A stretch of 32,127 nt of DNA from a virus, in the IMG/VR virus record IMGVR_UViG_3300020442_000275, positions 1 through 32,127 of that record; one strand, 5' to 3'. A program made the translations under genes and the position numbers. The notes below the pieces were generated by a model. That model saw only the letters and a program-made list of their open reading frames with translations, had not been told where the DNA came from and ran no database searches. Shown in pieces: positions 11,751-22,524 of the stretch. Each line of letters begins with the position of its first letter. Position 1 is the stretch's first letter.

Positions 11751-13250
11751 TTATGCGTCAGTAATTGCCAAGATCGCTGCTTTAAATGCTTCATAATTAG
11801 CAGAAGCATTTAGTGCTTCTTTCAATTTAGAAAGAGGAATTAGATAACTTGCTGCTTGAGCAGACCCACCAGTGTCATGCTGTGCTACCTTAAGAAAACT
11901 TCCTTGAAAATACACAGTATTATCTGATAAGAATAAGTGACGAATCTTATATTCAGCACTACCTATATCATATGCTGCATTAGAAGATGGAAGAATGTGC
12001 CCATTCATTGATCCAGAAATGGTATTAACAAATTCAATACCATTACCAGCACTATTTACTTTCAAAAACTTACCAGACGCACCAAAGTAACTCGCAGGAG
12101 TATCACTTAAAGCAGTAAGAGTTGCGGGAGGATCTTGTGTTGGGGTAGCATCAACCCACTGCTGACTGTCTCCATCATCATAATAAACTTTCAATCTACC
12201 TTCATCAGATTTCCACCATAAATCACCATCGTTTTTGTTGGTTGGTTCGGCGTCAGATGTAGTTACAGTTGCACTAGCAGAGTTTATAGTAAACCCATTT
12301 GCAGAAACACTACTAAAACTAACACCCGTACCTGCTGTCAGTAGAATATCATCATCTATACCATTAGATCCGCTCAACCTCAGGTTAATATTATTACCTG
12401 AAGCAACGGATCCATGTGTATATGTAGTATCAGTATCTGGATTTGACTGAATCGTAAATCCATTTGCAGTTACGTTTGCAAATGTAATATTAGATCCTGC
12501 TGTAATAAGAATGTCGTCATTGTTTCCCAATGAATCTGTCAATCTTAAATTAACATTACTGCCACTGGCAACTGAAGATTGTGAATAAGAAGTATCATAT
12601 GGAGCATTAACAAACTCTAATGCACTAGCACCAGAATTAACTCTCAACCATTTACCACCTTGACTAGTAAGACTAGATGGTGTATCTTGCAAACCGACAA
12701 AACTAGTACTACCACCTCCACCACCTGTAGGTGATGGTGCCCAGTTAGATCCATTCCATTTTAATATATCATTATTTGATGGAGTCTGACTAGAAACATC
12801 ATTAAGATCTGATAGGTTTGATACTAAACTAGGTTTACCAGTCAAGTCTGCATATGCACCAGAAAATAATGTAGGTTTGTTTTTAATAAAATCAACTGCC
12901 GTTGTATTACTAACATTCCAATCAGATTGAATCTGAGCAGCAGGAATGCTAGGAAGACCACTTAGGTCAGCATACTGTCCAGTGGTTGCAACAGTAGCAA
13001 GATTTGGTTTGTTTAATATCTGTGCTACACCACTAGTAGCATTCCAATCTGTATTAACCTGAGCAGAAGGTATGGATGGAAAATCTGTCCATGCAACAGA
13101 AGATCCAGTAGACTTTAAATACTGTCCACTGGATCCACTAGCACCTGCTACTTGAAACGGTTTCCCATTAGCAACATTTAGACCATCTTTTGCTTCTACA
13201 GGTCCATTGTCATTGTAGTTAGATATCTGATTTGCAAGTAACTTTGACAT
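11751..13250 (-). CDS. Repeat-containing tail-fibre/appendage protein, 499 aa
   Basis: Three repeat types are visible. (a) About 40 residues twice at 60-141 (SDWN, then NKPxL, then YADLxGxPS). (b) An LxDTPSS-GGK-L-VNS-LEFVN unit at about 187-215 and 380-409. (c) A 50-residue unit twice at about 219-324 (SVASGxNxNLRL, DDILxTAG, ANGFTI). Residues 420-450 (LPSSNAAYDIGSAEYKIRHL) match the end-region motif of many phage fibres. The Ser/Asn/Gly-rich composition and absence of Cys fit a beta-rich fibre. It is probably a receptor-contacting virion appendage. A late-promoter-like site lies upstream. Confidence 0.85.
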   Translation of the reverse strand: MSKLLANQISNYNDNGPVEAKDGLNVANGKPFQVAGASGSSGQYLKSTGSSVAWTDFPSIPSAQVNTDWNATSGVAQILNKPNLATVATTGQYADLSGLPSIPAAQIQSDWNVSNTTAVDFIKNKPTLFSGAYADLTGKPSLVSNLSDLNDVSSQTPSNNDILKWNGSNWAPSPTGGGGGSTSFVGLQDTPSSLTSQGGKWLRVNSGASALEFVNAPYDTSYSQSSVASGSNVNLRLTDSLGNNDDILITAGSNITFANVTANGFTIQSNPDTDTTYTHGSVASGNNINLRLSGSNGIDDDILLTAGTGVSFSSVSANGFTINSASATVTTSDAEPTNKNDGDLWWKSDEGRLKVYYDDGDSQQWVDATPTQDPPATLTALSDTPASYFGASGKFLKVNSAGNGIEFVNTISGSMNGHILPSSNAAYDIGSAEYKIRHLFLSDNTVYFQGSFLKVAQHDTGGSAQAASYLIPLSKLKEALNASANYEAFKAAILAITDA

Positions 13251-13287
13251 ACTTCTAGTCCTGAAGACACTTATTCCGAGCTAGAAG

Positions 13288-13295
13288 TATTTATT
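13288..13295 (-). promoter_or_regulatory. Near-consensus late promoter (AATAAATA)
   Basis: 7/8 match to TATAAATA on the minus strand, 38 nt before the ATG of the 499-aa fibre gene and just after the 122-aa gene. It probably starts the fibre/protease late unit. Confidence 0.55.
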
Positions 13296-14944: not shown

Positions 14945-15189
14945 CTTTCCTCAAAAGTCAATTTACGAACTTTGCGTTTGCGTCGTTCTTCTTGATATTG
15001 TAAGTCCTCTTTTGTTAGAATTCCATTATATTTAATATTTTTTTCATGATTGATTAATACTACGTCACTTAGGTTCATAGCACCAACCTTATCATCTACA
15101 ACCCACATTTGATTTGGGCACCCACAACACTGAACCTTAGGTGTGCTTTTCAACTCTTTGTTGCACACCTTACATCTTGCTATTAACAT
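14941..15189 (-). CDS. Small Zn-ribbon-like protein, 82 aa
   Basis: Two cysteine pairs at the N-terminus, CKVC (residues 6-9) and QCCGC (residues 21-24), suggest a zinc-ribbon or treble-clef knuckle. A highly basic/acidic C-terminal helix follows (YQEERRKRKVRKLTFEER). This could be a nucleic-acid-binding protein; in some T4-like phages similar small Zn proteins lie near endonuclease genes. It overlaps the GIY-YIG-like gene by 7 bp. The exact role is not known. Confidence 0.72.
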   Translation of the reverse strand: MLIARCKVCNKELKSTPKVQCCGCPNQMWVVDDKVGAMNLSDVVLINHEKNIKYNGILTKEDLQYQEERRKRKVRKLTFEER

Positions 15190-15626
15190 TTTACATCAAA
15201 GTAATCTTTCTTGTAGTAACGTCCTAGGATATTACTATTGTAATAAGCAGGAGTACCATCATCCAAAGTCTCCTGTAAAACATTATTTAAAAATAATTGT
15301 TTTGTTTCTTCGTAATTAGTCTTGCCTGCTGTGGGATGTAGACTTATTATTTCTCTTCTGAAATTTCCATTCCCCAGAAGTTTCCTGTCCTCTGCAAGTT
15401 CTTTAGAACTTCCGTAGTATGCTTTCCAGTTACTCTCACTCGTCCGCTTGCGTTTGCTACTTCCAGACTTTCGTTTCTGGACGAAGTATTTTCTACCGAT
15501 GTATTTCCTACCCGACTGGATATTTGTAATGCAGTAGACAAAACCGTACAGACCGTCAATATCCTCAGATAAAAAAGGGTGTCCTTGAAACATCCAAGGG
15601 TTTTCATAGTCTGCATTTTTTTCCAC
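15183..15626 (-). CDS. GIY-YIG-like endonuclease domain protein, 147 aa (start uncertain)
   Basis: The N-terminal half has the GIY-YIG fold signature: YGFVYCITN (residues 27-35) then KYIGRKYF (41-48), followed by a Lys/Arg/Ser-rich loop (QKRKSGSSKRKRTSESNWKA) and GNGNFRREII. The family includes homing and repair nucleases, and such proteins recur in T4-like cyanophages. The only in-frame start at the front is GTG 15624-15626. However, the ideal RBS (GAGGAA) and the ATG at 15632-15634 belong to another frame. One added G just after that ATG would give M-A-Q-V-E-K-N-A-D in this frame, so a base may have been lost or misread. The RBS is inside a hairpin. Confidence 0.78.
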   Translation of the reverse strand: MEKNADYENPWMFQGHPFLSEDIDGLYGFVYCITNIQSGRKYIGRKYFVQKRKSGSSKRKRTSESNWKAYYGSSKELAEDRKLLGNGNFRREIISLHPTAGKTNYEETKQLFLNNVLQETLDDGTPAYYNSNILGRYYKKDYFDVKC

Positions 15627-15637
15627 TTGAGCATAAT

Positions 15638-15667
15638 ATATTCCTCATGATTATTTATGAGGAATAT
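15638..15667 (-). promoter_or_regulatory. RBS-sequestering hairpin before the GIY-YIG-like gene
   Basis: ATATTCCTCAT and ATGAGGAATAT form a perfect 11-bp stem with an 8-nt loop. In the minus-strand RNA the 3' arm carries the GAGGAA ribosome-binding site, 8 nt before the ATG at 15632-15634. Transcripts that read through from nrdB would fold and hide the RBS. A late transcript starting near 15659 would lack most of the 5' arm and leave the RBS free, the known design of T4 gene e. Confidence 0.75.
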
Positions 15668-15672
15668 TTATA
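15665..15672 (-). promoter_or_regulatory. Perfect T4-type late promoter at the hairpin edge
   Basis: TATAAATA on the minus strand. Placing it at -13 to -6 puts the start at about 15659, within the 5' arm of the RBS hairpin. A second near match (CATAAATA, 15652-15659) lies in the loop and 3' side of the upstream arm. Confidence 0.72.
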
Positions 15673-15924
15673 TCAATTAGTCCCACGGGTCTGGTATTTC
15701 TTCACACTTTTTTCCCATTCTTTCAGACTGCTTTGGCAATCTGTAGGTGCTGGGTCTTTGTATCCTTTCATTGTCTTCCAATCGTTGTACATTGCTTGGA
15801 GGATCCAACTCTGGGACAGACTCTTCGGACCGTTCTCTAATAGGTCTTTCTGAGACTTGGAGACGATCTTCATACCTAGGTATTCTTTTCGCCACCCTTC
15901 GTGTGGTACGTCTGTATGGGTCAT
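15673..15924 (-). CDS. Hypothetical protein, 83 aa, downstream of nrdB
   Basis: Not recognised. A polar helical protein with several Trp (MTHTDVPHEGWRKEYLGMKI, SWILQAMYNDWKTMKGYKDP). Its ATG lies 2 bp after the nrdB stop with no clear RBS, so it is probably coupled. A competing Arg-rich ORF in another frame (15677-15964) overlaps nrdB and was rejected. Because it follows the nrd genes immediately, it may be co-expressed with them. Confidence 0.7.
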   Translation of the reverse strand: MTHTDVPHEGWRKEYLGMKIVSKSQKDLLENGPKSLSQSWILQAMYNDWKTMKGYKDPAPTDCQSSLKEWEKSVKKYQTRGTN

Positions 15925-15926
15925 GG

Positions 15927-17090
15927 TTAAAGTTTAAAACCAGCGAAAGTATCTTTCTTAACATCTTGTTTAATACTACCTATCATATAGGATTCCACCT
16001 CAGTTTCCTGTGGTGCTACTTGTAAACCTTTAGACGACAACCAGTGTGCTGTCCAAGGTAGTGGGTTGTTTGCTAGTGGAGTATCAAAAATTGCTTTGAG
16101 ACCAATTGATTTCAAGCGACGGTTTGCAGTCCACTCAACATAGTTCTGTAGTAGTTTGTCATTCAAACCAATGATAGAACCATCTTTGAAGAGATACTCT
16201 GCCCATTCTTTCTCTTCATTTACACATTCTTTAAACATTGTATATACATTTTCTTCTTCCTCCTTAGCAATCTCTACCATATCAGGATCGTCACCCTCTT
16301 TCCATTTGTTAAGAATGTTTTGAGTGACAGTCATGTGTTGTGACTCATCTCTAGCAATGAGTCCAATGATCTTGGCAGATCCTTCTAGAAGTTTTAGTTC
16401 ACCAAAGGCAAAACTACATGCAAAAGAGACATAGAAACGGATACCCTCAAGGATATACACGTTTGCAATTGCTCTGTATAGTTTTCTCTTTAGATCTTTA
16501 CGAGTCCATTCTACTGAAGGAGAACCTTCAGAGTCTTTCTTCCACATGCTACTAGAACTCCACTCCTGAGCATACTGAATGAACTCATCATATGCCTTGG
16601 TTACGGATTGAGCACGTGCAAGAATCTTTTCATCATCAAGAATTTTATCAAAGACCTCTGATGGATCTGGATATACATTCTTGATGATGTGTGTATATGA
16701 TCTGCTATGAATCATTTCCATAGTCTGCCATATGTTCATACACCCTTCTAGTTCTGGTAAAGAACAGTAGGGTGAAAATGCCATGCCAGGTGCTCTACCC
16801 TGTACAGAGTCAAGCAGAATCTGATACTTAAGGTTGCTGGTAAAAATATGTTTCTGTGTTTCGTTGAGAGTTTGATAGTCTGCCCTATCTTTCTGCAAAG
16901 AAACTTCCTCTGGTCTCCAGAAGAAACTTAACTGTGTCTGTGTGAGTCTATCAAAAATAGGATACTTGAATTTATCATATCTCTGTACACCTAAGGGAGG
17001 ACCAAAGAACATTTGTCCTTTGGTCGTATCAACTTGTTTCGTATTAAATACCGTCATACCGTTCATTTCGTCAGATTGCACAACTGTCAC
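15927..17090 (-). CDS. nrdB: Ribonucleotide reductase small subunit (class Ia R2)
   Basis: Di-iron R2 ligand motifs are in order: EGCMNIWQTMEMIHSRSYTH (Glu, His and the radical Tyr spaced ExxHxxxY), LEGIRFYVSFACSFAFGELK, and IARDESQHM (Glu, His). The radical Tyr shows a tyrosyl-radical class Ia enzyme. With NrdA it makes deoxyribonucleotides for phage DNA. I chose GTG at 17090 (388 codons) because GGAGGA lies 8 nt upstream, though this RBS is inside the nrdA end. ATG codons at 17066 and 17057 (MTVFNTKQVDTTKG) are alternatives. The gene overlaps nrdA by about 20 bp. Confidence 0.96.
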   Translation of the reverse strand: MTVVQSDEMNGMTVFNTKQVDTTKGQMFFGPPLGVQRYDKFKYPIFDRLTQTQLSFFWRPEEVSLQKDRADYQTLNETQKHIFTSNLKYQILLDSVQGRAPGMAFSPYCSLPELEGCMNIWQTMEMIHSRSYTHIIKNVYPDPSEVFDKILDDEKILARAQSVTKAYDEFIQYAQEWSSSSMWKKDSEGSPSVEWTRKDLKRKLYRAIANVYILEGIRFYVSFACSFAFGELKLLEGSAKIIGLIARDESQHMTVTQNILNKWKEGDDPDMVEIAKEEEENVYTMFKECVNEEKEWAEYLFKDGSIIGLNDKLLQNYVEWTANRRLKSIGLKAIFDTPLANNPLPWTAHWLSSKGLQVAPQETEVESYMIGSIKQDVKKDTFAGFKL

Positions 17091-19425
17091 AGGCTTCTTC
17101 CTCCGTAGCAAATATATCGTCTAATAAATTTGAAATAGCAATGTTATTCTTATTGTCCTCTTCTACATCATCTTTCCAACCAAGAGAATGTGCAGGTTCA
17201 TCCATATCACTCTTAGTATCATATGTATTCTGATAGTAAGAGGTCTTCCAACCTAACTTGTAGGTCATAAGTAGATCCTGTGCCATCACTGAAGTAGGAA
17301 CTTCATTGTTGTCATAATGTAGTGGGTTATAAGACCAGTTTCCAGAGATTGCTTGGTCAAAGAATTTCTGCATGACTGATACGATATTGATATAACCAGT
17401 GTTATCAGGCATATCCCAGAGCAACGTGTAATTATTTTTTAGAGTTGCATACTGAGGTACAATTTGTTTGAGAGGACCTTTCTTAGACTTCTTAGTTGAA
17501 ATAAGATCTCTAGGTGGTTCAATACCATTGGTGGCATTTGAGACCACTGAAGAGGATTCTGATGGCATCTGTGCGGACAGTGTGCTATGTCTGAGTCCAT
17601 GGTTATAGATGTCATCTCTAAGTCCTTCCCAATCATAGTTCAGATTGTTTGGAACAATCTCATCAACGTCTTCCTTGTATGTGTCAATAGGTAGGATACC
17701 GTCAGCATATTTTGTTCTCTCAAAATCTAAACAAGGACCTTTTTGCTTAGCAAGATTGTTTGATGACTTGAGAAGATAGTACTGGAATGCTTCAGTAAGA
17801 TCATGAACTAGTTTCCATGCTTCTGGATCTTCATACTTAACACCATGCTTAGCAAGGTAGTGTGCTAAACCAATATAACCAACACCCAATGACCTACGTG
17901 CAATAGTGCTACGCTTAGCAGCATCTACTGGATAGTTTTGGTAGTCAATTAGTTCTTCTAGACCACGAACAGTCAGGTCACACAACTCTTCCAAGTCATC
18001 TAGGTTTCTAATCTTACCTACGTTAATAGCAGATAGGATACAGAGTGCAATTTCACCCTCACCATCAATGTGATTGATAGGATCTGTAGGCAAAGTGATC
18101 TCTTGACAGAGATTACTCATATTAACCTTGTCCTTGAAGGAAGAGTGACTATTACAGTGGTCAATATTCATGATGTAAATACGACCAGTCTCTGCCCTCT
18201 CTTTCAAGAGGTCAAGAATAAGTTCTTGAGCACCAATAGTTTTCTTTGGAATAGATCCATCAGATTCATAACGCTTATACAGATCATCAAACTCGTCAGT
18301 GCCAAAAGCATCATACAAACCTGGTACATCGTGAGGTGAGAATAAGCTGATGTCTTCGTTAGTGATAAATCTTTCATAGAAAAGTTTTGAAATTTGGATA
18401 CTATAATCTAGTTTCCTAACTCTGTTATCCTCTGTACCTTTATTGTTCTTAAGAACTAGGATGTCTTCTATTTCTTGGTGCCAGATTGGGAAGTGGACAG
18501 TTGCTGATCCACCTCTGATGCCATTTTGAGTGCAGCAGCGGACAGTGCTTTCAAACTTTTTGAGAAATGGGACAACGCCTGTGTGTTGTACTTCTCCACC
18601 CCTGATCTTACTGTTGATTCCACGGATTCTACCTGCATTGATGCCGATTCCAGCACGTTGAGCAACATAATAACCAATAGCCATATCGCTGCTGAAGATG
18701 CTGTCAATTGTGTCATCAACGTCAACAAGAACGCAGGAGGCAAACTGGCGTAAAGGCGTCCTAACTCCCGCCATGATGGGGGTTGGGATGTTGATTCTGT
18801 GCTTTGAGATTGCGTCGTAGTATCGTTTGACATAATCCAATCTATTTTCTGTGTACTCTTGGAATAGGGTAACAGCGATCATCATGTACATGTACTGGGG
18901 TGTCTCATACACCTCACCAGAACTCCTATCTTGTACAAGATATTTGTCAGTAACCTGACGCAACCCTGCATAGGTAAACAGATAGTCACGATCATGGTCA
19001 ATCCATGAATCAATCTTATCCCACTCCTCGTCTGTGTATTTATCAATGATGCCGCCATCATACACACCATATCCTACACATTCAGAGATGTGCTCTAGGA
19101 CATGTGGGTGTCCATCTGTCAACCATTTGGATCCTAACACCTGTTTTCTCACAGCATATAGTAACAACCGTGCTGCTACGAATTGGTAATTGTAATGATC
19201 AAGATCAATTAGATCACTAGCAGATCTAATTAGAATTTCTTGAATATCTTTGGTCTCAATACCATCATGGAACTGGAGTCCAGAATTCATTTCAACCTGA
19301 GAAGCACTTACGCCGCTTCCTAATCCTTCACATGCCTCTTCAACCATCTTATGTACTTTATCAAGGTTGAGAGGTTCTACAGTGCCGTCTCTCTTGCGAA
19401 CTTTAATGCCGTTTCCGTTGCTCAT
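17071..19425 (-). CDS. nrdA: Ribonucleotide reductase large subunit (class Ia R1), 784 aa
   Basis: An ATP-cone-like N-terminus (residues 6-95, KVRKRDGTVEPLNLDKVHKM) is followed by the ten-stranded barrel. Catalytic residues are visible: C231 (QFASCVLVDVDD), N438/C440/E442 (SNLCQEITLPT), C462 (LCILSAINVGKI), the radical-transfer tyrosines in TSYYQNTYD, and the redox-active C-terminal pair C779/C782 (ACDSCAI), which glutaredoxin or thioredoxin would reduce. The length fits E. coli NrdA (about 760 aa). The start overlaps the primase stop by 4 bp and the 3' end overlaps nrdB, so primase, nrdA and nrdB are coupled. Converts NDPs to dNDPs. Confidence 0.98.
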   Translation of the reverse strand: MSNGNGIKVRKRDGTVEPLNLDKVHKMVEEACEGLGSGVSASQVEMNSGLQFHDGIETKDIQEILIRSASDLIDLDHYNYQFVAARLLLYAVRKQVLGSKWLTDGHPHVLEHISECVGYGVYDGGIIDKYTDEEWDKIDSWIDHDRDYLFTYAGLRQVTDKYLVQDRSSGEVYETPQYMYMMIAVTLFQEYTENRLDYVKRYYDAISKHRINIPTPIMAGVRTPLRQFASCVLVDVDDTIDSIFSSDMAIGYYVAQRAGIGINAGRIRGINSKIRGGEVQHTGVVPFLKKFESTVRCCTQNGIRGGSATVHFPIWHQEIEDILVLKNNKGTEDNRVRKLDYSIQISKLFYERFITNEDISLFSPHDVPGLYDAFGTDEFDDLYKRYESDGSIPKKTIGAQELILDLLKERAETGRIYIMNIDHCNSHSSFKDKVNMSNLCQEITLPTDPINHIDGEGEIALCILSAINVGKIRNLDDLEELCDLTVRGLEELIDYQNYPVDAAKRSTIARRSLGVGYIGLAHYLAKHGVKYEDPEAWKLVHDLTEAFQYYLLKSSNNLAKQKGPCLDFERTKYADGILPIDTYKEDVDEIVPNNLNYDWEGLRDDIYNHGLRHSTLSAQMPSESSSVVSNATNGIEPPRDLISTKKSKKGPLKQIVPQYATLKNNYTLLWDMPDNTGYINIVSVMQKFFDQAISGNWSYNPLHYDNNEVPTSVMAQDLLMTYKLGWKTSYYQNTYDTKSDMDEPAHSLGWKDDVEEDNKNNIAISNLLDDIFATEEEACDSCAI

Positions 19426-21880: not shown

Positions 21881-22465
21881 TTAAGTTACGGTTAGGGTTG
21901 CAACATTAGATACTGCTTCTGGAGCACCATTTGTTGTATTGATTTTGCATCTATACTTGTTACCATTATCTCCAGCTGCTGTTGCTGCTGTAGTATATGT
22001 TGCAGTAGTACCATTTGCACCAGTGGTAACATCAGCAAAGTTTTCTCCATCTGTGCTAACCTGCCACTGATAAGTGATAGTTCCACCACCAGTTCTGGTA
22101 GCAGTAACAGCAAATTGTGCTGTATTTGTTGCAGCAACAGATGCATTAGAAGGTTGTGCTGTAATTGTAATTGCTCCTGCTGAATCAGATGCGATAGTAT
22201 CATCTGCTTGAGTTTCGTTAGCGTTAGCTTCTGGGTTGGCAATAGTAACTAGTTGCTCTGCCTTATGGCGAGTATTACCATTATGGTCATCATAAGTAAA
22301 GTATGACCACCAGCCAGGAGCATTCAAACCCCTATTCTTGTTCTGGGCAAGTTGTGCTTCTGTGTCGTCAATGAAGACGATAGTTTTTGTTTGTGAACTC
22401 GCAGCAACACCAATACCAGCTTTGGTTTTATTGGCATTACTGTCATCGGCTCCATAAAGTGACAT
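21881..22465 (-). CDS. Virion protein with Ig-like domain, 194 aa
   Basis: Residues about 1-75 (GLNAPGWWSYFTYDDHNGNT, RHKAEQLVTI) form a module found in cyanophage structural proteins. Residues about 100-194 form an immunoglobulin-like beta-sandwich (PSNASVAATNTAQFAVTATR, TITYQWQVSTDGENFADVTT, NKYRCKINTTNG), with the Trp and Cys of the fold. Such Ig-like domains are common on phage capsid or tail surfaces, where they bind weakly to glycans. A perfect late promoter and a terminator lie just upstream, so this begins a late unit. Confidence 0.85.
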   Translation of the reverse strand: MSLYGADDSNANKTKAGIGVAASSQTKTIVFIDDTEAQLAQNKNRGLNAPGWWSYFTYDDHNGNTRHKAEQLVTIANPEANANETQADDTIASDSAGAITITAQPSNASVAATNTAQFAVTATRTGGGTITYQWQVSTDGENFADVTTGANGTTATYTTAATAAGDNGNKYRCKINTTNGAPEAVSNVATLTVT

Positions 22466-22491
22466 TGATATGCTCCGTTATTTCTACTCTT

Positions 22492-22499
22492 TATTTATA
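22492..22499 (-). promoter_or_regulatory. Perfect T4-type late promoter for the Ig-like gene
   Basis: TATAAATA on the minus strand, 27 nt before the ATG of the Ig-like virion gene and directly after a terminator hairpin. Predicted start near 22486. Confidence 0.78.
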
Positions 22500-22500
22500 A

Positions 22501-22524
22501 AGAAAGGGGACTTGCGTCCCCCTT
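22501..22524 (-). terminator. Intrinsic terminator with GCAA tetraloop
   Basis: On the minus strand a stem of about 9 bp (AAGGGGGAC / GTCCCCTTT, one G-T pair) closes on a GCAA loop, a stable GNRA tetraloop, and is followed by TTTCTTTAT. It is about 10 nt after the stop of the 65-aa gene and leads straight into a late promoter. Confidence 0.85.

Follow-up and report, generated by a model that had tools for sequence, protein, structure and literature searches.

A candidate T4-type translation switch at a frame overlapping the GIY-YIG gene of a cyanophage

In a cyanophage, the place where the nrd genes give way to a GIY-YIG gene raises the question of whether a start site on a shared message is hidden by a hairpin and released only on RNAs made late in infection. 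In the window (the whole 32,127-base virus record in IMG/VR that we analysed), the minus strand carries a primase-like gene, nrdA, nrdB, an 83-aa gene, the GIY-YIG gene, two small genes and a transaldolase gene, followed by small genes and then a tail-fibre gene (Table 1). In cultured cyanomyoviruses, the genes of nucleic-acid metabolism belong to the middle class (PMC7238727), and T4 uses switches of this sort where late genes share long transcripts with genes for early and middle products (PMC2988022). The genes are tightly packed after nrdA–nrdB, and the terminator scan found no terminator-like site on the minus strand from 20413 to 13000, so that read-through from the nrd genes is likely. 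As a separate observation on nrdA, the second-codon-position frame around codons 210–300 holds 0 stops against about 31 expected in 7 cyanophage genomes, and third positions in the same stretch are unusually conserved; an overlapping ORF or an RNA element may lie there.

Table 1. Coordinates of the features discussed, within the window
Feature	Position	Strand	Remark
nrdA, ribonucleotide reductase large subunit	17071..19425	-	
nrdB, ribonucleotide reductase small subunit	15927..17111	-	
83-aa gene, function unassigned, phrog_16908	15673..15924	-	ends at the promoter
Late-promoter motif TATAAATA (site A)	15672-15665	-	abuts the stop codon of the 83-aa gene; transcript predicted to begin at ~15659
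Hairpin 5' arm ATATTCCTCAT	15667-15657	-	overlapped by TATAAATA
Second late-type motif CATAAATA (site B)	15659-15652	-	in the loop; fits the S-PM2 consensus NATAAATA
Hairpin loop AAATAATC	15656-15649	-	
Hairpin 3' arm ATGAGGAATAT	15648-15638	-	contains the ribosome-binding site
Shine-Dalgarno-like GAGGAA	15646-15641	-	inside the 3' arm
ATG behind the hairpin	15634-15632	-	
95-codon ORF, phrog_8965	15347..15634	-	opened by the ATG behind the hairpin; other frame, overlaps the GIY-YIG gene
SegE-type GIY-YIG gene	15183..15626	-	PF19835, E 1.1e-51
Tail-fibre late element	13249..13295	-	upstream of the tail-fibre gene 11751-13250
Tail-fibre late motif AATAAATA	13295-13288	-	overlaps the 5' arm
Tail-fibre arms ATACTTCTAG/CTAGAAGTAT	13290-13281 / 13258-13249	-	10-bp stem
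Tail-fibre AGGA	13262-13259	-	in the loop
Tail-fibre start ATG	13250	-	inside the 3' arm

The minus strand directly 3' of the stop codon of the 83-aa gene reads TATAAATATTCCTCATAAATAATCATGAGGAATATATTATG. Its two 11-nt arms are perfect complements, and the 11-bp stem, the GAGGAA in its 3' arm and the perfect TATAAATA are all present as a sequence-only reading of this DNA had described them. The 8-nt gap that it gave between the ribosome-binding site and the ATG holds when counted from the GAGG core; from GAGGAA the spacer is 6 nt. The T4 late promoter consists of an 8-bp TATA box that precedes the start by about one helical turn (PMC2988020), and by this T4 geometry initiation from site A is predicted inside the 5' arm, as had been proposed. 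That reading had overlooked site B, and had not noticed that ATG 15634 and the GIY-YIG ORF lie in different frames. Site B fits the late promoter consensus of cyanophage S-PM2 (PMC2984593), and its predicted start at about 15646 is the first G of GAGGAA. The window contains 6 copies of TATAAATA against 2.25 expected, and three of the four minus-strand copies lie 26–30 nt upstream of an ATG with an ORF. No Rfam family matched at the hairpin site.

The layout is real, and it is not what chance would give. The window has two perfect 11-bp stems with a 3–14-nt loop, against a mean of 0.115 per shuffled window, and when the whole window was dinucleotide-shuffled 200 times, the joint layout (a stem of at least 9 bp, a Shine-Dalgarno sequence in its 3' arm, a start and a late motif) never appeared. 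The read-through RNA has a predicted fold of -24.4 kcal/mol, compared with -13.7 +/- 2.7 for shuffled sequences (z -4.0; 0/200 equally stable), and its pairing exceeds the 11 bp by taking in TATAAA and part of the AUG. The Shine-Dalgarno sequence and the start are thus paired in a predicted stable hairpin on upstream-initiated RNA, as in a T4-type switch. The short late RNAs, whose predicted 5' ends leave out the 5' arm, are nearly unstructured at -3.1 (site A) and -2.4 kcal/mol (site B), and the unpaired fraction of the start region rises from 0.07 on the read-through RNA to 0.62 or 0.69, respectively. A gain of this size was found at just 1 of 208 late-type sites, taken from 7 cyanophage genomes and this window, and at 6 of 1727 other gene starts; beside the 208 late sites, the unmasking at 15634 ranks second-largest.

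The simplest reading of this layout is that the site may act as a translation switch between read-through and late RNA, of the T4 gene e or I-TevI type, and we consider this reading probable by a modest measure. We infer from the elements in Table 1 that messages entering from the nrdA–nrdB side would contain both arms, and that the hairpin on them would bury GAGGAA and part of the AUG, so that little protein would be made. At the late stage of infection, the late polymerase of the phage would initiate at TATAAATA (about 15659) or at the loop site CATAAATA (about 15646), and ribosomes would reach the binding site on the resulting RNAs, which would lack the 5' arm. The switch would act directly on initiation at ATG 15634, whose frame overlaps the GIY-YIG gene. 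Translation of the GIY-YIG protein itself would begin at GTG 15626, 8 nt further on, under the same control. Our confidence stays at that level because the stem at 15638-15667 is not conserved.

Among 69 distinct homologous upstream regions, the window included, 38 have a late-type motif no more than 60 nt from the ATG, and none has a comparable hairpin except the window's own. S-CAM4 and P-TIM68, isolates that share the neighbourhood, have late-type motifs without such a hairpin. Loss of the stem without compensation in close relatives had been named as grounds for refuting the switch; the stem is absent from every homologous upstream region retrieved, although all of these come from distant relatives. 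Leader conservation is a property that supports, and does not define, the T4-type class. A search of viral contigs with the exact arms gave no relative of the site among the matches listed, and the junction of the 83-aa and GIY-YIG genes was not found in viral contigs. Given that the closest relatives found share only about 60–77% identity in the aligned stretch of the GIY-YIG protein, a lineage-specific switch is possible. A hairpin pairing GAGG in locus L010 was considered and set aside, as it is not significant (z 0.10) and loses one pair in L024 and L042. We also rejected a general rule by which cyanophage late promoters lie within start-masking hairpins: at the 208 late sites (7 cyanophage genomes and the window) long RNAs were no more closed (0.509) than controls with shuffled flanks (0.501), although p was 0.008 when the sites were compared, more crudely, with gene starts that had not been matched to them.

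These results bear on the main rival explanation, in which late promoter(s) and ribosome-binding site are functional and the hairpin arose recently and neutrally, through a local inverted duplication or a template switch, and has no role in timing. The stem is perfect and lineage-specific, hairpins are not generally enriched at late promoters, and L010, L024 and L042 carry a module of TATAAATA and GAGGAAT without the insert that makes the 5' arm, all of which a neutral origin would accommodate. However, the arm spans precisely the ribosome-binding site and stops at the predicted late RNA start, the unmasking is near-maximal among the 208 late sites, and a conserved analogue stands before the tail-fibre gene of the same cluster. 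We regard a neutral hairpin as rather unlikely.

The analogue emerged from the very survey that gave no general hairpin enrichment. Among 9 late-type sites of the window that the gene caller paired with starts, the tail-fibre one has a start-enclosing hairpin. It resembles the site at 15632-15672 in having a late motif over the 5' arm, in the same orientation and the same cluster, and differs from it in that its loop contains AGGA and its stem takes in the AUG. This element of about 45 nt recurs at L352:2239-2299 and L042:3076-3136, in about 75 viral contigs and in S-CAM4, and the genes behind it begin MSK(L/I)LANQI. In 36 distinct sequences, which comprise loci retrieved with a pattern that leaves most arm positions free and homologues found by protein, the 10 pairs are kept in 360 of 360 cells, whereas partners slid by 1–3 columns pair in 24–53% of cells. 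Five pairs vary, always to G-U; no double-sided change occurs in the 36 distinct sequences, and the covariation support is of the G-U kind only. In a wider set, L404 breaks the loop-closing pair. The tail-fibre element is the better conserved candidate for the same mechanism, on a gene whose product is clearly late.

The G-U changes also bear on a second rival, that the palindrome acts as DNA, for instance as the operator of a dimeric protein over the late promoter. The inverted repeat does overlap both promoter motifs, and I-TevI represses its own synthesis by binding an operator that overlaps its late promoter (PMC2988022). That operator, however, resembles the I-TevI homing site, and G-U changes in the analogous tail-fibre element fit an RNA structure better than a DNA palindrome. 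We consider an operator highly improbable. Least credible is a terminator or an RNA processing or stability element between the nrd and downstream genes: a stable hairpin does sit at this operon junction, but its stem has just 4 G-C pairs, no T-run follows it and the terminator scan does not report it.

Other late-type motifs in the window and elsewhere stand in different surroundings. One other of the 9 sites paired with starts lies behind a terminator-like hairpin. At 22465-22520 on the minus strand, upstream of a head-protein gene, the terminator-like hairpin GGGGGACGCAAGTCCCC is followed directly by TATAAATA, a design in which a terminator would stop read-through in place of a masked start. 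In phage Sf-CH5 (L299, start at about 109,295 of PV340852.1), the late-type motif ACTAAATA runs directly into a terminator-like hairpin, GAGGCAAACGCCTCTTTTTTT, that ends at an ATG; a late start there would fall inside the 5' arm, and the terminator would be disarmed. A PhotoRC-II RNA (RF01717) lies at 1880-1975 on the minus strand of the window, upstream of a psbA-like gene (762-1835), with TATAAATA just before it at 2006-1999 on the same strand. The heptamer ATAAATA is strongly strand-biased in 12 cyanophage genomes (e.g. 29 to 3 and 61 to 5), consistent with promoter use.

If the T4-type switch is accepted as the preferred reading, the gene that it would control has to be reconsidered. The sequence-only reading spoke of a switch of the GIY-YIG gene. 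The T4-like layout, the predicted unmasking, the lack of a terminator-like site and the second element all favour a switch at this place, but the GIY-YIG gene, whose first in-frame start is GTG 15626, is read in another frame than the ATG behind the hairpin, and the wording needs correction as to the reading frame. The same arrangement, a ribosome-binding site before an ATG in the overlapping frame with a GTG 8 nt downstream, is found in L010, L024, L042 and S-CAM4. Of 65 distinct relatives, 24 have a Shine-Dalgarno-like sequence before the first overlapping-frame ATG, and 0 of 50 have one before the first in-frame ATG of the GIY-YIG gene. An overlapping-frame ATG is present in all the relatives, which is uninformative in itself, one such ATG being built into the conserved TAT-GA motif.

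With few exceptions, relatives keep the overlapping frame open for about 80–110 codons. Of 45 representatives, nearly all have it stop-free for about 80 codons, compared with a mean of 47 in synonymous-codon shuffles, and its stop depletion ranks about third among 55 gene families. Between closer pairs, third positions are 2–2.6 times more conserved within the overlap than after it; in six distant genomes, this conservation is unremarkable among other genes. The ORF is already present in PHROGs as phrog_8965, and in the S-CAM22 annotation the overlapping frame is called in place of the GIY-YIG gene. An AlphaFold model of the ORF, built with 35 sequences, is of low confidence (pLDDT 62, pTM 0.29), and neither supports nor excludes a protein. 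These data point to a possible overlapping gene at 15347-15634. We only tentatively entertain the further idea that phrog_8965 is a real cyanomyovirus protein, encoded within the initial two thirds of the GIY-YIG gene, and that the one late switch would release two proteins translated in different frames. A -1 frameshift at AAAAAAA (15618-15624) joining both frames is not preferred: relatives share the offset and have no common slippery site.

The GIY-YIG protein itself has the catalytic domain of a SegE-like homing endonuclease (PF19835). The sporadic, mobile occurrence expected of a homing endonuclease was not seen: the gene is free-standing and has one copy in each of the 12 cyanophage genomes searched, which were chosen for having it, and it therefore looks like a resident gene. 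It occurs in 490 phage records at a coverage of at least 80%, and its neighbours differ between genomes, lying on the talC side or the nrdB side. In L286, L290 and other phage records this gene is annotated as 'NAD synthetase'; in Syn19, the annotation of that name covers just the last 78 bases of the gene.

Should the switch operate as proposed, the T4 way of sharing operons between middle and late genes, through a late ribosome-binding site hidden on read-through RNA, would extend to marine cyanophages. It would also explain how a late tail-fibre gene can follow nrd and talC genes although no terminator is apparent. The finding on the reading frame, moreover, means that the family at present named 'NAD synthetase' should be re-annotated.

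To conclude, this kind of switch is already known, and the same anatomy has been described for T4 e, soc, 49, I-TevI and segB and for Aeh1 mobE (PMC2988022, PMC3014915); in the open-licence literature searched, we found no report of it in cyanophages. As predicted from its sequence, the site would share with T4 gene e, which encodes lysozyme, a ribosome-binding site masked on long RNAs (early ones in T4) and late promoter(s), here TATAAATA, within the stretch that encodes the 5' strand of the hairpin. It differs in that the start behind the hairpin belongs to a cyanophage reading frame that overlaps a GIY-YIG gene. A review lists syn9, S-PM2, P-SSM2 and P-SSM4 as lacking gene e. With the leaders of T4 I-TevI, I-TevII, I-TevIII and segB and of Aeh1 mobE, the site has in common a predicted late promoter and RBS-masking hairpin before a phage endonuclease gene, and several of those genes lie within nucleotide-metabolism genes, namely in the td, nrdB and nrdD introns and at mobE (PMC2988022). 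Unlike them, the cyanophage GIY-YIG gene is free-standing and the ATG behind its hairpin is out of frame. In our view, this locus is best read as a new example, from a cyanophage, of the T4 e/I-TevI/segB/mobE switch.
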